From positions 1-64,000 of the forward strand of contig CAIWAH010000183.1 in the NCBI GenBank assembly GCA_903910585.1: a stretch of 64,000 nt of DNA. The letters are read 5' to 3'. The number at the start of each line of letters is the position of its first letter. The stretch's first letter is position 1. The DNA is from an uncultured Verrucomicrobiota bacterium. Lineage in GTDB: Bacteria > Verrucomicrobiota > Verrucomicrobiia > Limisphaerales > UBA9464. A model generated the notes under the pieces. That model searched no databases, was not told where the DNA came from, and worked only from the letters and a program-made list of their open reading frames with translations. Of this stretch, positions 44,295-50,229 are shown piece by piece. Both the position numbers and the translations under genes were made by a program.

Positions 44295-46829
44295 TCACTG
44301 TTCGTGGAATCGCTGCGTGGACATCAGAAAGGCCACCATCCCGCGGACCCGCAGGTCGTAGGCCGACGTGCCCACCGCCAGGCCGCTGAAAGGCGAGGCC
44401 GACACACCATCGTCCGCGGTGTTGAGGAATTGCGCGGCCAACGTCCGGAAGCCGTCGAGATTGGCCGAGCCCTCCGCGGGATAGAGCAGGCTGGAAAAAT
44501 ACCCGGCCACCGCTTCGGCATCCGACAGTTTGTCTGCGGGCACCTTTTTGCGCAGCAATCCGACCGGATCGATCACCGTCGCCGTGCCGGCATCAGATTT
44601 TCCAGTCATGCTCACGGGCATCAGTGCCGACTGCACGAAACGGATGCGCTCGGTCAAAGTGCCGGCGCTGATCCACGCCGGAGCATCCTCCGGGTAACCG
44701 TCCGGCTCGGCCCGATCAAACAGCCGGAGGCGGCCGGCGCGGTTGATGATTCCGGCCAACGCGTAGCCGTCGCTGTCCGAGGTATAGGAGCCGTCCTCGT
44801 TCTGGGAGCGGAGCGACCGGACCGTGCTCACCGCGAACTCGAACGGCGTTTTGACCTTCTGCAGCGTGCCCGCCTGCGAACGGAACAGGTCCGAGTTGAG
44901 GATTACCCGGAGCACGTCGCGAATCTGGCCTTTGGGACTGCCGGAATCCCAGGCCAACATGCACTGATACACCAGGTCTTCCTCGGGAGTGTGCAGGTCG
45001 TCTGCAAAATCGTATCCGAGCGCGAAGCCGTCGTGGACGAGCAACCGGCAGAGCTTCACGGAGATGAACTCCATCGTGAACGGCTGGTTCGCCATGTGAG
45101 TGATGATGGCGTAACCCTCCCGGATGCCGTTGGTGCCCGACTGCCCGGCCGCGAGGACCAAGCCGTAGGGTTTGCCGGCCCATCGCGATCCAAACCGCGC
45201 CGGAATCAATTTCGGCTGGGCGGTGTCCACCGTTCCGTCCGCCTTGGTCTGATGGAAAATGTATTTGGCGGCCACGTTGTGCCGGGCGCCCTTGTAGTTG
45301 AACGCCCATAGGCCCTGCAGGTTCGGGCTGGCGTTCAGTTCGGTCGTGTTGGTGAGCGTTGCGTCGATGTAGTTGGTGGAACGGACCGCAAACGGGTTGA
45401 ACTCGTCGTTCGTGCTGACCAACTCGATCGTCCAGCCGGTCCAAGCCCGGGAAATCTGCACGATGTCCTGCTGGTCGTAGCCGTTGTCCACGCCAAAGCA
45501 GAACAGCTCGCAGAGCTCGCGGGCGTAGTTCTCGTTGGCGATCCGGGTGCCATTTCCAAGGGAGCCGACCGTGTCCAGATAAATGATCATTGCCGGGCTT
45601 TCGGCGCTGATCCGCAACAGGTCGAGGAATGACGTGGTCGGGCGGAGCAGCGCTTCCTGCCACCGGAGGTTTTCAACGAGTTCCGCCCGCGTGGAGATGG
45701 GATCGGATTGGGTGGAGTCGTAACCGCGGTTGTCAAAATAGTCCCGGGTCTTGGAGATCTGCGTGACAAAGTGGTTCTCCAGAAACTGCCGCAGCACCTC
45801 GACGAGTTGCCGCTTTGCCTGAACCGCGTGGAGAATGTGCCACGCCCGGAGGTCGGTCAGCGTTCCCGTGCCCGCTTGGAGGGAGGAAAAAATCGGCGCC
45901 GGCGAGTTGTTCTGGCCGGATAGCGGAACGCTCGTCGTCACCCCGCTACCTCCCATTCGCACCACCAGTTCCGAATCCTCGTTGGAGGTCCGATACCAGA
46001 AGCTCAGCGTCACCGGTGTGCCCCGGGCAATGGTGGGTGATATGGTTTGCGCGATCGCTGTGCTCTGGCTTTCCCCAGCCGCGGAGGCCACGACATGGAG
46101 GCAGGAGCCACCGCTTTGGGCAAAGTCCGCGGTCACGGCTGACGCCTCCAAGTTCGCGGCCACCGTCCACGAACCGGCCAGCCCGGTCTCAAAGTCGCCG
46201 TTGGTCAGAAGATTGGTCTGGCTGCCATTGTCGGTGGCGCCAACGACAAACCGGACGTTGTCCACATAGGCGTCACCCGGACCATCCATGAAGATGTAGA
46301 TGCGGGTCTGACCGCCGGATGTTGTCGCGGCGCCGGTCACCGTCACCTTTTTCCATTTCGGGGCCGAATCGAGCACGTCGAGTGTCTCGGCGATGTTTTC
46401 CGGCGCCAGCTGTTCGGCGATGAAAGCATCCGGCCCGATTGCGCGAACCCGGTCCAGTTCATCCGGCGTCGGTCCGTAGGCGATCCGATGAAGCAGGTTG
46501 ACCACCGCAGCATCGTTCGACGGCATCGGCACGGAATCCACCCGGAAGAACCCCTGCGCATAGGTCAGATCGCCGCCCGTCAAGCTGAGGCCCGCCCGGG
46601 TGGCGTCGGTCGGCGCGAACGGTCCCAGCACATCTGGTCCGGACAGGAGCCGATAATCGGCCGCGCCTGGCGCGGGGCTGAACCCCACCTTGGCCTTTTC
46701 CCCGACCGCCTCGATGGATTGGATGACGGGCGAATCCGGATTCTGTCCGCTGCACAAAAAAGAGACACCGAGGGTCAGGGCGCCCACGGCGAGGGATTCC
46801 ACCCATGCAGACAACCAGCGGGTTTTCAT
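44295..46829 (-). CDS. DUF1800 protein with carbohydrate-binding-like insert
   Basis: This 844-residue protein has a signal peptide (about 1-30, ending FLCSGQNP), a short beta domain, and the DUF1800 body. DUF1800 marks include LLHRIAYGPTPDELDRVRAIG, RFFLENHFVTQ-like helices (QFLENHFVTQISK), ENYARELCELFCFGVDNGY, QISRAWTGWTI and VKLCRLLVHDGF. Between the first helices and the body, at about residues 150-320, lies a beta-rich insert with TNLLTNGDFETGLAGSWTV, a pattern of CBM4/9-type carbohydrate-binding domains. It is first in the two-gene unit with DUF1501. The ATG at 46829 begins the signal; the frame extends 16 codons further. Confidence 0.88.
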   Translation of the reverse strand: MKTRWLSAWVESLAVGALTLGVSFLCSGQNPDSPVIQSIEAVGEKAKVGFSPAPGAADYRLLSGPDVLGPFAPTDATRAGLSLTGGDLTYAQGFFRVDSVPMPSNDAAVVNLLHRIAYGPTPDELDRVRAIGPDAFIAEQLAPENIAETLDVLDSAPKWKKVTVTGAATTSGGQTRIYIFMDGPGDAYVDNVRFVVGATDNGSQTNLLTNGDFETGLAGSWTVAANLEASAVTADFAQSGGSCLHVVASAAGESQSTAIAQTISPTIARGTPVTLSFWYRTSNEDSELVVRMGGSGVTTSVPLSGQNNSPAPIFSSLQAGTGTLTDLRAWHILHAVQAKRQLVEVLRQFLENHFVTQISKTRDYFDNRGYDSTQSDPISTRAELVENLRWQEALLRPTTSFLDLLRISAESPAMIIYLDTVGSLGNGTRIANENYARELCELFCFGVDNGYDQQDIVQISRAWTGWTIELVSTNDEFNPFAVRSTNYIDATLTNTTELNASPNLQGLWAFNYKGARHNVAAKYIFHQTKADGTVDTAQPKLIPARFGSRWAGKPYGLVLAAGQSGTNGIREGYAIITHMANQPFTMEFISVKLCRLLVHDGFALGYDFADDLHTPEEDLVYQCMLAWDSGSPKGQIRDVLRVILNSDLFRSQAGTLQKVKTPFEFAVSTVRSLRSQNEDGSYTSDSDGYALAGIINRAGRLRLFDRAEPDGYPEDAPAWISAGTLTERIRFVQSALMPVSMTGKSDAGTATVIDPVGLLRKKVPADKLSDAEAVAGYFSSLLYPAEGSANLDGFRTLAAQFLNTADDGVSASPFSGLAVGTSAYDLRVRGMVAFLMSTQRFHEQ

Positions 46830-47049
46830 AGTTCTTACGCGCAACACTCCTAGCAACCGCGGGGCCGGGGCAATCACAGTTGGTGAATTCCCTGGTCGTA
46901 GTGGCTAAGTTGCCCTGGGTGATCAATGACGGTCAGCGTGAGCCGGACACTGGCCGTTGGCACGTCCCCAAAAGTAATTATCTGCCGCAATCCGCGCGGC
47001 CCCTCCCAATCGCGGGCAGTTGGGTCAGGTGGACATCGGCCGGAACCGC

Positions 47050-47997
47050 TTAGGTCCCAGCCACTTCTCCGCTACGTCCACCGTTCAGCAGAAACAGGAC
47101 CGCCATACGCACCGCCAAGCCGTTGGTGACCTGTTCCAAGATCACCGATTGATCTCCATCGGCTATGTCGCTCTCGATCTCGACGCCGCGGTTGATCGGC
47201 CCGGGATGCATGATCAGGGCGTCCGGCTTCACCCACTTCATCCGGGCGGGATTCAGCCCAAAGAGTGCGGCGTATTCCCCAATGCTCGGGAACATGGTCA
47301 CACGCTGGCGTTCGTGCTGGATCCGCAGAAGATTGACCACATCGGCGTCCCGCAGGGCTTCTTCAAGGTTCCATGTCACCCGGATGTTGGGGTCCAGCGA
47401 CTCCAACTGCCGGGGAACCAGCGTGGGCGGACCGCACAAAGTGACCTTGGCCCCCAATCGGACCAGTGCCCAGATGTTCGACCGGGCCACCCGGCTGTAG
47501 AGAATGTCACCGAGGATGGTGACGTTCAGCCCGGCCAGCCGGCCCTTCTTTTCCCGAATCGTGAAGGTGTCGAGCAACCCTTGGGTGGGATGCTCATGGG
47601 CGCCGTCGCCGGCATTGACGACGTGGGCCCGGGCGAATCGCGAAAGGAAATGGGGGGCTCCGCTCGCGCTGTGGCGCAGGATTACAAAGTCCGCCTGCAA
47701 CGCCTCCAGATTGCGCACGGTGTCCTTCAGGGTTTCCCCCTTTTTCAGCGAACTCGCTTCCGCCGTGAAATTGATCACATCCGCGCTCAGACGGACCGCC
47801 GCGAGCTCGAAGCTAATGCGGGTTCGCGTGCTGGGTTCGACGAACAGGTTGACGACCGTCTTGCCCAGCAAGGCCGGAAACTTCTTCTTCGGGCGTTCCC
47901 CGAGCGACTTGAAGTGGCGGGCCGTGTCGAGGATCAGCGTCAGTTCCTCGGCCGAAAGCGATTGCAGGTCGAGCAGATGGCGGCGGTTCCAGTTCAT
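47050..47997 (-). CDS. pyrB: Aspartate carbamoyltransferase catalytic subunit
   Basis: This 315-residue enzyme joins carbamoyl phosphate and aspartate, the committed step of pyrimidine synthesis. The carbamoyl-phosphate loop is EPSTRTRISFELA, followed by FTAEASSLKKGETLKDT, ILRHSASGAPHFL, AGDGAHEHPTQGLLD and the aspartate-side block MHPGPINRGVEIES. Its ATG overlaps the pyrR stop by 4 bases. The pyrR-pyrB unit lies behind a PyrR-type leader, so pyrimidine control by attenuation is likely. No pyrC or pyrI gene follows; the sequence beyond the stop to the DUF1800 start (220 bases) shows nothing clear. Confidence 0.96.
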   Translation of the reverse strand: MNWNRRHLLDLQSLSAEELTLILDTARHFKSLGERPKKKFPALLGKTVVNLFVEPSTRTRISFELAAVRLSADVINFTAEASSLKKGETLKDTVRNLEALQADFVILRHSASGAPHFLSRFARAHVVNAGDGAHEHPTQGLLDTFTIREKKGRLAGLNVTILGDILYSRVARSNIWALVRLGAKVTLCGPPTLVPRQLESLDPNIRVTWNLEEALRDADVVNLLRIQHERQRVTMFPSIGEYAALFGLNPARMKWVKPDALIMHPGPINRGVEIESDIADGDQSVILEQVTNGLAVRMAVLFLLNGGRSGEVAGT

Positions 47998-48527
47998 GAT
48001 TTCAGCTCCTGCAGGGTGACCGTATCGTTGCCACCGTCCTCGGTCAGGGACACCTCGACGCGTTGCGAGCGTGAAGTGGGCACATTCTTGCCGACGAAAT
48101 CGGCCCGGACCGGCAACTCGCGGTGACCGCGGTCCACCAGCACTGCCAATTGCACCCGGTTGGGGCGTCCGAAATCGTGCAGCGCATCCAGCGCCGCCCG
48201 TGTGGTCCGCCCGCTGTAGAGCACGTCGTCCACCAGCACCACCGTCCGGCCGTTCACGTCAAACGGAAGTTCGGTCGGCCGCAACATCGGCGCGGACCGG
48301 CGATCGAGGTCGTCCCGATGCAGGGCGACATCCAGAAACCCGGCCGGCACCGCATGGCCGTAGATTGTGCTGAGCTGGGCGGCGAGCCGGCGGGCAAGGA
48401 ACACGCCGCCGGTCTGGATGCCGACCAAAACCAGATCGGTCCCGGCCGGATTACGTTCGGCGATCTCATGGGCCATGCGGGCGATCGTTCGTCCGAGGGC
48501 GGTGGAATCGAGCAAAAGGGCACTCAT
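47994..48527 (-). CDS. pyrR: Bifunctional PyrR regulator/uracil phosphoribosyltransferase
   Basis: This 177-residue PRTase-fold protein has the PRPP loop VVLVDDVLYSGRTTRAALDAL and the typical PyrR blocks LVLVGIQTGGVFLARRLA, VALHRDDLDRRSAPMLRPTELPFDV (in parts), VDRGHRELPVRADFVGKNVPTS. PyrR binds pyr mRNA leaders when UMP is high and so causes early termination; many also have UPRT activity. The ATG at 48527 begins SALLLDSTALGRTIARMA. A PyrR-box hairpin and a terminator lie just upstream, and pyrB follows with a 4-base overlap. Confidence 0.94.
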   Translation of the reverse strand: MSALLLDSTALGRTIARMAHEIAERNPAGTDLVLVGIQTGGVFLARRLAAQLSTIYGHAVPAGFLDVALHRDDLDRRSAPMLRPTELPFDVNGRTVVLVDDVLYSGRTTRAALDALHDFGRPNRVQLAVLVDRGHRELPVRADFVGKNVPTSRSQRVEVSLTEDGGNDTVTLQELKS

Positions 48528-48530
48528 TGC

Positions 48531-48630
48531 GCAAAAATGAAAGGCCGGCCCCACTCGGGGAGCCGGCCGGCAAACGTTGCTTTCAGTTTCAGTTTCATGT
48601 GCGCCTTCGGGGCCTCGCAGGACCCCGTTA
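48531..48630 (-). promoter_or_regulatory. PyrR-type attenuation leader of pyrR-pyrB
   Basis: On the minus strand, 48626-48609 reads GGGGTCCTGCGAGGCCCC, a hairpin whose loop side fits the PyrR-binding consensus (A-R-UCC-N-G-N-GAGG-Y-U) at 12 of 14 positions, including the invariant UCC and GAGG. Further on, 48568-48543 forms a GC-rich stem (GGCCGG-CT-CCCC with GGGGCCGGCC) followed by TTTCATTTTT, which is a terminator ending just before the pyrR ATG. The GGCCCC arm of the PyrR hairpin can pair with GGGGCC of the terminator, so the two structures could exclude each other. That is the layout of pyr attenuators in Gram-positive bacteria. Confidence 0.7.
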
Positions 48631-48652
48631 AAGGTGCATTCAGTGAGCTGCT

Positions 48653-48871
48653 TCAGTGCCCGACCAACTGCCGGGCCCGCCGCCAATCGGCGCGATATTT
48701 GGTGATCCAATCCACCAGGGCACGTTCAAAGCCGATGTCGTGCCCCGCCTTTTCCGACTCGATCCACTTGTGCTTCAGGATCTCCTCCCGCTCTGCCTGG
48801 AACTCCCGGTAGAGCGTGGTGTTGACCAGCAGCGACTGCGCTGAGCGTCGCGGTTCAGATTCATTGCCCAT
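48653..48871 (-). CDS. Small hypothetical protein upstream of pyrR
   Basis: This 72-residue protein is charged and helical, with the block REEILKHKWIESEKAGHDIG followed by FERALVDWITKYRADWRRAR. I do not recognise a named family, though the HKW-x-SE-x-AG pattern followed by DIG looks conserved rather than random. The ATG at 48871 was chosen; an open frame extends to 48979. The gene ends 26 bases before the PyrR hairpin on the same strand, so it is the first gene of the unit or its own short transcript that runs into the pyr leader. Confidence 0.6.
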   Translation of the reverse strand: MGNESEPRRSAQSLLVNTTLYREFQAEREEILKHKWIESEKAGHDIGFERALVDWITKYRADWRRARQLVGH

Positions 48872-49023
48872 AGCACTACTCCAACCCTTCGCGGTAACGA
48901 AACCGTAACGCGGGTGACCCGGGAGTAAACGGGAAATTCCGGGGATGCCCCGCCCCGAACACGTCGGCATCAAAGGCACAATCCTCCCGTGACGACCGGC
49001 GAAGGGTTCGCCTCAATCGGGCC

Positions 49024-50229
49024 GTGGCCGGCGAGTCGGAACACCAGGTCAGGGGAAGGATCCGGGAAGTCTTCTGGGCTTTCCTGCGCCTTGGCCTGAC
49101 CAGCTTCGGCGGACCGAGCGCCCACATCGGCTACTTCCACGACGAATTCGTGAAACGCCGCCATTGGTTGGACGAGGCCGCCTATGCCGATCTGGTGGCG
49201 CTTTGCCAGTTCCTGCCCGGACCGGCCAGCAGCCAGCTCGGATTTGCCATGGGAAAGGCCCGCGCAGGTTGGGGCGGTGCCATCGCTGCCTGGGCCGGTT
49301 TCACCCTGCCGTCCGCGGCAATCATGATCTGCCTGGCAATGGGGCTGGCCCGGGTGCAGCCCACCGCATTGGCTCCATGGCTGCACGGGTTGAAGCTGGC
49401 CGCCGTCGCGGTGGTGGCGCAGGCGGTGGGGACCATGGCCGGCAAGCTCTCGCGGGGAAAAACTCGTCTGCCCATCACCCTCGCAGCCGGAGCATTGGTG
49501 CTGATGTGGGACTCCGCCGCAGCCCAATTGGTGGCCTTGGTTCTTGCGGCCGCCATCGCGTCCCGTTGGAACGACGATTCGACCTCCACGCTCTCCATTC
49601 CGGGTTCCCATCCCAAACCGGGTCCCCTCCCCGGACTCACGCTGCTGGCGCTATTCGGCGCGCTGCTGGTCGGACTTCCGTTCCTCGCCTTCATTACGGG
49701 TTCCCGGGATTTGCAACTCCTTGACCGGTTTTATCGGGCTGGCGCCTTGGTATTCGGCGGAGGCCACGTCGTGTTGCCTTTCCTCCAATCAGCCGTTGTG
49801 ACTCCAGGTTGGGTCAGTCCGGACGAATTCCTGGCCGGCTACGGATTCGCGCAGGCACTCCCCGGTCCGCTGTTCACCTTTGCCGCTTACCTTGGAGTCG
49901 CCTCCCATCCCGGACCCGGCTCGGTGTTCGCAGGCCTTGCGGCGTTATCGGCCGTCTTTTTGCCGGGCCTCCTCCTGGTCGCGGGGGTGTTGCCTTCGTG
50001 GGATCGCTGGCGCGGCGACCGGAGGCTGCGGGCGGCCTTGGACGGCGCCAACGCCGCGGTGGTCGGCGTGCTGTTCGCAACTTTGGTCACCCCCCTTGCG
50101 ACCACGACGCTGCGCCGGCCGGCCGATTGGCTTGTTGCTTTGGGCGGAACCGCGCTCCTCGGATTGAAGCTCCCTTCGTGGGCCGTGGTTCCGTTGTGCG
50201 CTACGGCCAGTTGGCTCGTCGGACGCTGA
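49024..50229 (+). CDS. chrA: Chromate transporter-type protein
   Basis: This 401-residue membrane protein is a two-domain (long-chain) CHR protein. Each half starts with the CHR signature: LRLGLTSFGGPSAHIGYFHDEFV and FLPGPASSQLGFAMGKA in the first, GALVFGGGHVVLPFLQSAV and GFAQALPGPLFTFAAYLG in the second. About ten to twelve helices are predicted. Family members export chromate, sometimes in exchange for sulfate. The start is a GTG at 49024, in frame with RGRIREVFWAFLRLG. It is divergent from the small gene upstream of pyrR; no chrB or other metal-resistance gene is near. Confidence 0.92.
   Translation: MAGESEHQVRGRIREVFWAFLRLGLTSFGGPSAHIGYFHDEFVKRRHWLDEAAYADLVALCQFLPGPASSQLGFAMGKARAGWGGAIAAWAGFTLPSAAIMICLAMGLARVQPTALAPWLHGLKLAAVAVVAQAVGTMAGKLSRGKTRLPITLAAGALVLMWDSAAAQLVALVLAAAIASRWNDDSTSTLSIPGSHPKPGPLPGLTLLALFGALLVGLPFLAFITGSRDLQLLDRFYRAGALVFGGGHVVLPFLQSAVVTPGWVSPDEFLAGYGFAQALPGPLFTFAAYLGVASHPGPGSVFAGLAALSAVFLPGLLLVAGVLPSWDRWRGDRRLRAALDGANAAVVGVLFATLVTPLATTTLRRPADWLVALGGTALLGLKLPSWAVVPLCATASWLVGR

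Follow-up and report, generated by a model that had tools for sequence, protein, structure and literature searches.

The window considered here, the whole 64,000-nucleotide stretch of DNA from an uncultured Verrucomicrobiota bacterium, carries a pyrR-pyrB gene pair preceded by a hairpin and a terminator, all on the minus strand, and raises the question of how these genes are controlled through their leader RNA. A first-pass annotation had described a hairpin with the UCC-N-G-N-GAGG core bound by PyrR and a terminator ending right before pyrR, and both were found as described (Table 1): the hairpin contains this core, and the GC-rich stem of the terminator is followed by a U-tract ending at 48533, close to the pyrR ATG (48527-48525). 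What that reading missed is a short leader ORF that starts just past the hairpin and crosses the terminator. Judging from sequence comparison, this ORF is most likely the actual switch, and the leader is probably a PyrR-responsive attenuator switched by its translation.

Table 1. Coordinates of the pyrR-pyrB leader elements and genes within the window.
Feature	Position	Strand	Basis
PyrR-binding hairpin (predicted), CCTTTAACGGGGTCCTGCGAGGCCCCGAAGG (as RNA CCUUUAACGGGGUCCUGCGAGGCCCCGAAGG)	48634-48604	-	RF00515 match; covariation over 59 sequences
AAGG, lower-stem 3' strand; putative Shine-Dalgarno of the leader ORF	48604-48607	-	sequence
Intrinsic terminator stem-loop, GGCCGGCTCCCCGAGTGGGGCCGGCC, 10 pairs, within the leader ORF	48543-48568	-	
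U-rich tract of the terminator, TTTCATTTTT / UUUCAUUUUU	48533-48542	-	
Complete RF00515 (PyrR) match	48537-48638	-	42.2 bits, model positions 1-115
Leader ORF, 24 aa, MKLKLKATFAGRLPEWGRPFIFAQ	48524-48598	-	translation; equivalents in relatives
pyrR, 177 aa, regulator/uracil phosphoribosyltransferase	47994-48527	-	NF003549, 232.9 bits (cut-off 138)
pyrB, 315 aa, aspartate carbamoyltransferase	47050-47997	-	NF002032, 402 bits (cut-off 263)

The identity of the two genes, as previously read, was upheld: the pyrR product exceeds the curated PyrR equivalog cut-off, and the pyrB product exceeds the cut-off of its own profile. Relatives of the window PyrR in the PDB include 1non, 1ufr (listed as pyr mRNA-binding attenuation protein), and 1a3c. 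The protein has Ala16 at the position of Thr18 in B. subtilis PyrR, a residue that we take to be important in RNA binding; this difference is a point against PyrR control of the leader. PyrR proteins of the order to which the window belongs form one clade with those of three named Verrucomicrobiota genomes, apart from the Firmicutes (SH-aLRT 99, quick tree), in agreement with the earlier assignment to a Verrucomicrobiota-type genome. A recent transfer from Gram-positive bacteria was considered and is not indicated, the PyrR proteins of the order forming their own Verrucomicrobiota clade in that tree. In genus g8 of the window's family (G008, G014, G020, G023, G027, and others) weak phosphoribosyltransferase matches only, and no close PyrR match, were seen; pyrR seems to have been lost there.

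The hairpin is composed of a lower stem CCUU/AAGG, an internal loop UAA, an upper stem, and the hexaloop CUGCGA (48620-48615). The Rfam family RF00515 covers the element from end to end, including the UCC-N-G-N-GAGG core and the CCUU/AAGG stem, with E values of 3.8e-4 (all Rfam families against 1.2 kb) and 3.9e-4 (this single family against the whole 5.3-Mb genome, where it is the sole match), at a score below the Rfam gathering cut-off of 54 bits. A model built from relatives gave 49.9 bits at the leader (E 1.1e-6), again as the sole match in the genome; as the 59 rows of this model include the window sequence, the score is not independent. Neither RF00515 nor the relative-built model detected further PyrR sites in the whole genome.

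A blind RF00515 search of 58 genomes, the window's included, returned 19 matches at E ≤1 in 18 genomes of the order, and 17 of these matches directly precede pyrR. The family search proposed in the first-pass annotation thus placed the element where it was expected, both in the window and in relatives, at scores mostly under the Rfam threshold: only one of the 58 genomes had a match above it, so that this cut-off misses nearly all copies in the order. The hairpins were then compared by covariation. As the set had been collected with a pattern fixing parts of the loop and the AAGG, only covariation of the stem counts as evidence: over 59 sequences, 97.1% of the hairpin cells were paired, against 89.8% in shuffles, and 50 cells were double-changed, against 11.2, a signal destroyed by sliding the structure. 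The loop CNGNGA remains constant while the stem varies, one U-G pair being replaced by C-G, G-C, or U-A.

The core, whose conservation in relatives with pyrR had been anticipated, is kept in about 60 distinct leaders of the order; for 83 of the 143 distinct pyrR leaders, among them those of most genera in the family of the window, no hairpin was recognised by the pattern, and these may have lost it or carry a diverged form. Five leaders (L210, L211, L178, L218, and L158) show a terminator-like hairpin and a T-run directly before the pyrR start, with no recognisable PyrR hairpin, and possibly represent a different or decayed attenuator. The leader of another Verrucomicrobiota bacterium (L020) is nearly identical to that of G035, a member of the same order.

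In the window, the hairpin ends in AAGG, and the ATG of the leader ORF (48598) lies 5 nt 3' of these four bases. The frame traverses the terminator and its TGA stop overlaps the pyrR start as ATGA; the pyrB ATG overlaps the pyrR stop in the same manner, and the leader ORF, pyrR, and pyrB form a serial chain of ATGA overlaps. The start of the leader ORF and the terminator's end are 55 nt apart, a distance that would be within the span of a ribosome closely trailing RNA polymerase.

The frame was then sought in relatives. pyrR genes were gathered by protein profile and their upstream regions were taken regardless of RNA features; a strict test called for an ATG no more than 9 nt from AAGG and a frame open up to the pyrR start, with expectations derived from dinucleotide shuffles of the same segments. 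By this test, the leader ORF was present in 49 of the order's 55 distinct leaders that carry a strictly defined hairpin, against 3.0 expected, whereas in Firmicutes it was present in 1 of 35 leaders, against 0.96 expected. With a wider hairpin definition and GTG or TTG starts allowed, the count rose to 57 of 60 distinct leaders. These loci are not phylogenetically independent; the hairpin-bearing leaders span about 28 families, and with one leader taken per family about 26 pass (tables read by eye). The start codon is mostly found 3-7 nt past AAGG. Among the 60 leaders, the ORF stop is commonest at +5 (29 leaders, mostly with an overlap of the ATGCCTGA type), followed by +1 (8 leaders, ATGA); six frames have no stop within the sequence retrieved, of which at least one (L156) is in frame with pyrR. 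Exceptions are L010, L161, L197, and L199, which possess the hairpin and have no ATG or GTG ORF reaching pyrR.

The peptide itself differs even within a genus (MKLKLKATFAGRLPEWGRPFIFAQ versus MKNTAPSASSKPVSLGRPAFVFPA). Taken together, 18 pairs of closely related leader ORFs differed by 74, 95, and 72 substitutions at the first, second, and third codon positions, respectively, a rough count since pairs overlap and some changes fall in stems. There is no third-position excess, which indicates that the peptide is apparently not selected, and selection seems to act on translation rather than on its product. That the ORF encodes a functional small protein is thus scarcely credible, even though it is open and of similar length in many genomes.

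The first-pass annotation had also noted that one arm of the hairpin can pair with an arm of the terminator, implying a competition between arms of the type established for Firmicutes PyrR leaders. In a Bacillus-type attenuator, part of the PyrR hairpin is engaged with a terminator arm in an antiterminator as long as PyrR is absent; by stabilising the hairpin, PyrR acts as an anti-antiterminator and lets the terminator form, and leader translation is not needed. The order of hairpin and terminator in the window is that of Firmicutes, and its GC-rich arms are able to pair (GGCCCC/GGGGCC). Duplex energies of the hairpin 3' arm with the downstream leader were compared with those obtained with shuffled downstream sequence. 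The Firmicutes leaders gave a mean z of -1.47, with 12 of 35 at p ≤0.05, whereas the order showed no antiterminator signal for this arm (mean z 0.03, 2 of 55 leaders at p ≤0.05), and the 5' arm was likewise weak (mean z -0.38, 6 of 55 leaders). In the window, the 3' arm had a duplex z of 0.2. The pairing is therefore literally there, is no better than chance, and is not conserved; it is a by-product of GC-rich arms, and the competition implied by the earlier reading did not find support in the order. Moreover, a Bacillus-type mechanism would leave the conserved ORF unexplained, and its operation here is improbable.

A terminator with a U-run was recognised in 41 of the 60 distinct leaders of the order, inside the ORF and usually near the pyrR start. 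Where no terminator was recognised, the ORF was retained, as in L106, L110-L114, and L116 (from the window's own family) and in others. As the frame is kept with or without a terminator, translation into pyrR is the constant feature of these leaders. It could be argued that control is translational only, PyrR hiding the Shine-Dalgarno of the leader ORF and thereby shutting off the coupled translation of pyrR, with the terminator being incidental. The leaders with hairpin and ORF and no recognised terminator (L106, L110-L114) are consistent with such a scheme, as are L241-L243, from a different order of the class, in which the hairpin immediately precedes the pyrR start. This scheme is nevertheless unlikely for the window, where a stable terminator with a U-run lies inside the ORF, as it does in the 41 leaders mentioned above. 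In the window's family, L106, L107, L110, and L111 carry a stem variant GGCC-NGNGA-GCC, in which the U-G pair is changed to G-C; they have no recognised terminator and mostly keep the overlapping frame, with a GTG start.

A translated leader ORF overlapping a terminator is also the layout of the E. coli pyrBI operon, where the sensor is UTP-dependent pausing and the ribosome keeps the terminator open, no PyrR hairpin being involved. If the leader of the window were of this kind, UTP would be sensed through polymerase pausing and PyrR would not be the sensor. This is highly improbable, given a covarying PyrR hairpin at a fixed place 5' of the ORF and pyrR as the first gene, and no conspicuous U-rich tract occurs from the leader start to the terminator in the window.

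According to the favored mechanism, switching by leader translation, PyrR-UMP would bind the hairpin when UMP is plentiful, clamping CCUU onto AAGG. The Shine-Dalgarno of the leader ORF would then be hidden and ribosomes could not enter; with no ribosome on the leader, the terminator would fold and transcription would halt just before pyrR. Transcripts that read through would likewise deliver no ribosomes to the pyrR start. When UMP is low, PyrR would be off the RNA and a ribosome would initiate at 48598; following closely behind RNA polymerase, it would hold the terminator stem open, terminate at the TGA overlapping the pyrR ATG, and then reinitiate. RNAfold predicts AAGG to be largely paired without protein (median unpaired probability 0.04). 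The ribosome must thus melt the lower stem on its own, and all that PyrR can do is reinforce an occlusion already in place, which makes the degree of regulation unpredictable. The anti-Shine-Dalgarno sequence GGATCACCTCCTTT was present in three of six relatives searched; it was not found in the window's assembly, a MAG from which the 16S gene is probably missing.

PyrR attenuation in Thermus has been published. Van de Casteele and colleagues reportedly proposed in 1997, for Thermus ZO5, that PyrR prevents a leader ORF from being translated, the terminator then forming on the ribosome-free leader. Leaders of Thermus and other Thermaceae resemble that of the window in having a PyrR hairpin ending in AAGG, a leader ORF a few nucleotides on, a terminator inside this ORF, an ORF end overlapping pyrR, and pyrR as the first gene. 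The window leader thus has the features of this type, with the Shine-Dalgarno of the ORF within the PyrR hairpin, the terminator inside the ORF, and no antiterminator signal across the order. The two groups belong to different phyla; the Shine-Dalgarno is usually AAGGA or AAGGC in the order, as opposed to AAGGAG or AAGGGG in Thermaceae, and the order shows the frequent ATGCCTGA overlap, with some members having no terminator or a frame running into pyrR. The occurrence outside Gram-positive bacteria, considered notable by the first-pass annotation, is real as regards hairpin, terminator, and pyrR in Verrucomicrobiota and is not unprecedented, since Thermaceae share the layout.

The model built from the order also detects leaders of Firmicutes, Actinobacteria, and Thermaceae; of the 41 genomes searched from the Meiothermus rufus family, 40 had a match. 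Its negatives in a phylum-wide scan, in which 26 of the thousands of candidates per genome were scored, were set aside. By a script criterion, a frame opening close to AAGG and extending to the pyrR start was present in 32 of 33 distinct leaders (29 from the Meiothermus rufus family and four from other phyla), one of the 32 (L264) passing only formally with its hairpin 23 nt before pyrR. The leaders with this layout include nearly all those examined from Thermaceae and those of one Rokubacteria, one Nitrospirota, and one Actinomycetota genome. PyrR hairpins followed by leader ORFs that stop at the pyrR start or close to it were seen in L042, L048, L056, L064, L083, L090, and L091, from Thermodesulfobacteriota, Myxococcota, Nitrospirota, Rokubacteria, and an Actinomycetota MAG.

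Leaders of B. subtilis and other Firmicutes (RF00515) share with the order the hairpin core, the CCUU/AAGG lower stem, the downstream terminator, and the regulator; they differ by the antiterminator pairing, present there and not in the order, and by the leader ORF, present in the order and not there. Direct translational control by PyrR is known from the Mycobacterium smegmatis type. In this type, too, the PyrR hairpin hides a ribosome site, but it sits a short way 5' of the pyrR start itself (10-13 nt in several cases; 13 nt in several Streptomyces-type leaders) and there is no separate leader ORF, unlike the window, where 76 nt containing the leader ORF separate hairpin and pyrR. In L241-L243, the hairpin stands directly before the pyrR frame, and control there would be direct and translational.

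No report of PyrR leaders in Verrucomicrobiota was found in the open-licence literature searched. The order therefore appears to be a new lineage, and a widespread one, for the Thermus type of PyrR control, a mode that is known but has been neglected; its function is deduced from sequence. PyrR control, with a mechanism that is definite and can be tested, is thereby extended to a large order of Verrucomicrobiota whose members are mostly uncultured (about 28 families here). A single hairpin appears wired, depending on the lineage, to three outputs: an antiterminator, a leader ORF, and direct occlusion of a ribosome site, and the evolution of this RNA switch is thus directly testable by leader swaps. 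The leader-ORF layout appears in Verrucomicrobiota, Deinococcota, Nitrospirota, Rokubacteria, and deltaproteobacterial genomes. More speculatively, leader-ORF control might be the widespread, perhaps ancestral mode of PyrR action outside Firmicutes and the Bacillus antiterminator a Firmicutes innovation, with leaders changing from one mode to another (attenuation, pure translational coupling, direct control) around a hairpin that stays the same.

A simple sigma-70 scan revealed no promoter at the locus, and no pyrC was seen beside pyrB in the window. A small gene with a weak DUF4032 match (48653-48979, minus strand, likely start near 48871) ends 18 nt before the PyrR hairpin; transcription of the pyr operon may start from a promoter within this gene or 5' of it. 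In many of the relatives from the order, a stretch resembling its C terminus (DWI-KHR--WR) ends shortly 5' of pyrR. A chromate-transporter family gene (49024-50229, plus strand) is divergent from the pyr operon, and a DUF1800 protein with a carbohydrate-binding-like domain is encoded immediately 3' of pyrB (44295-46877, minus strand).
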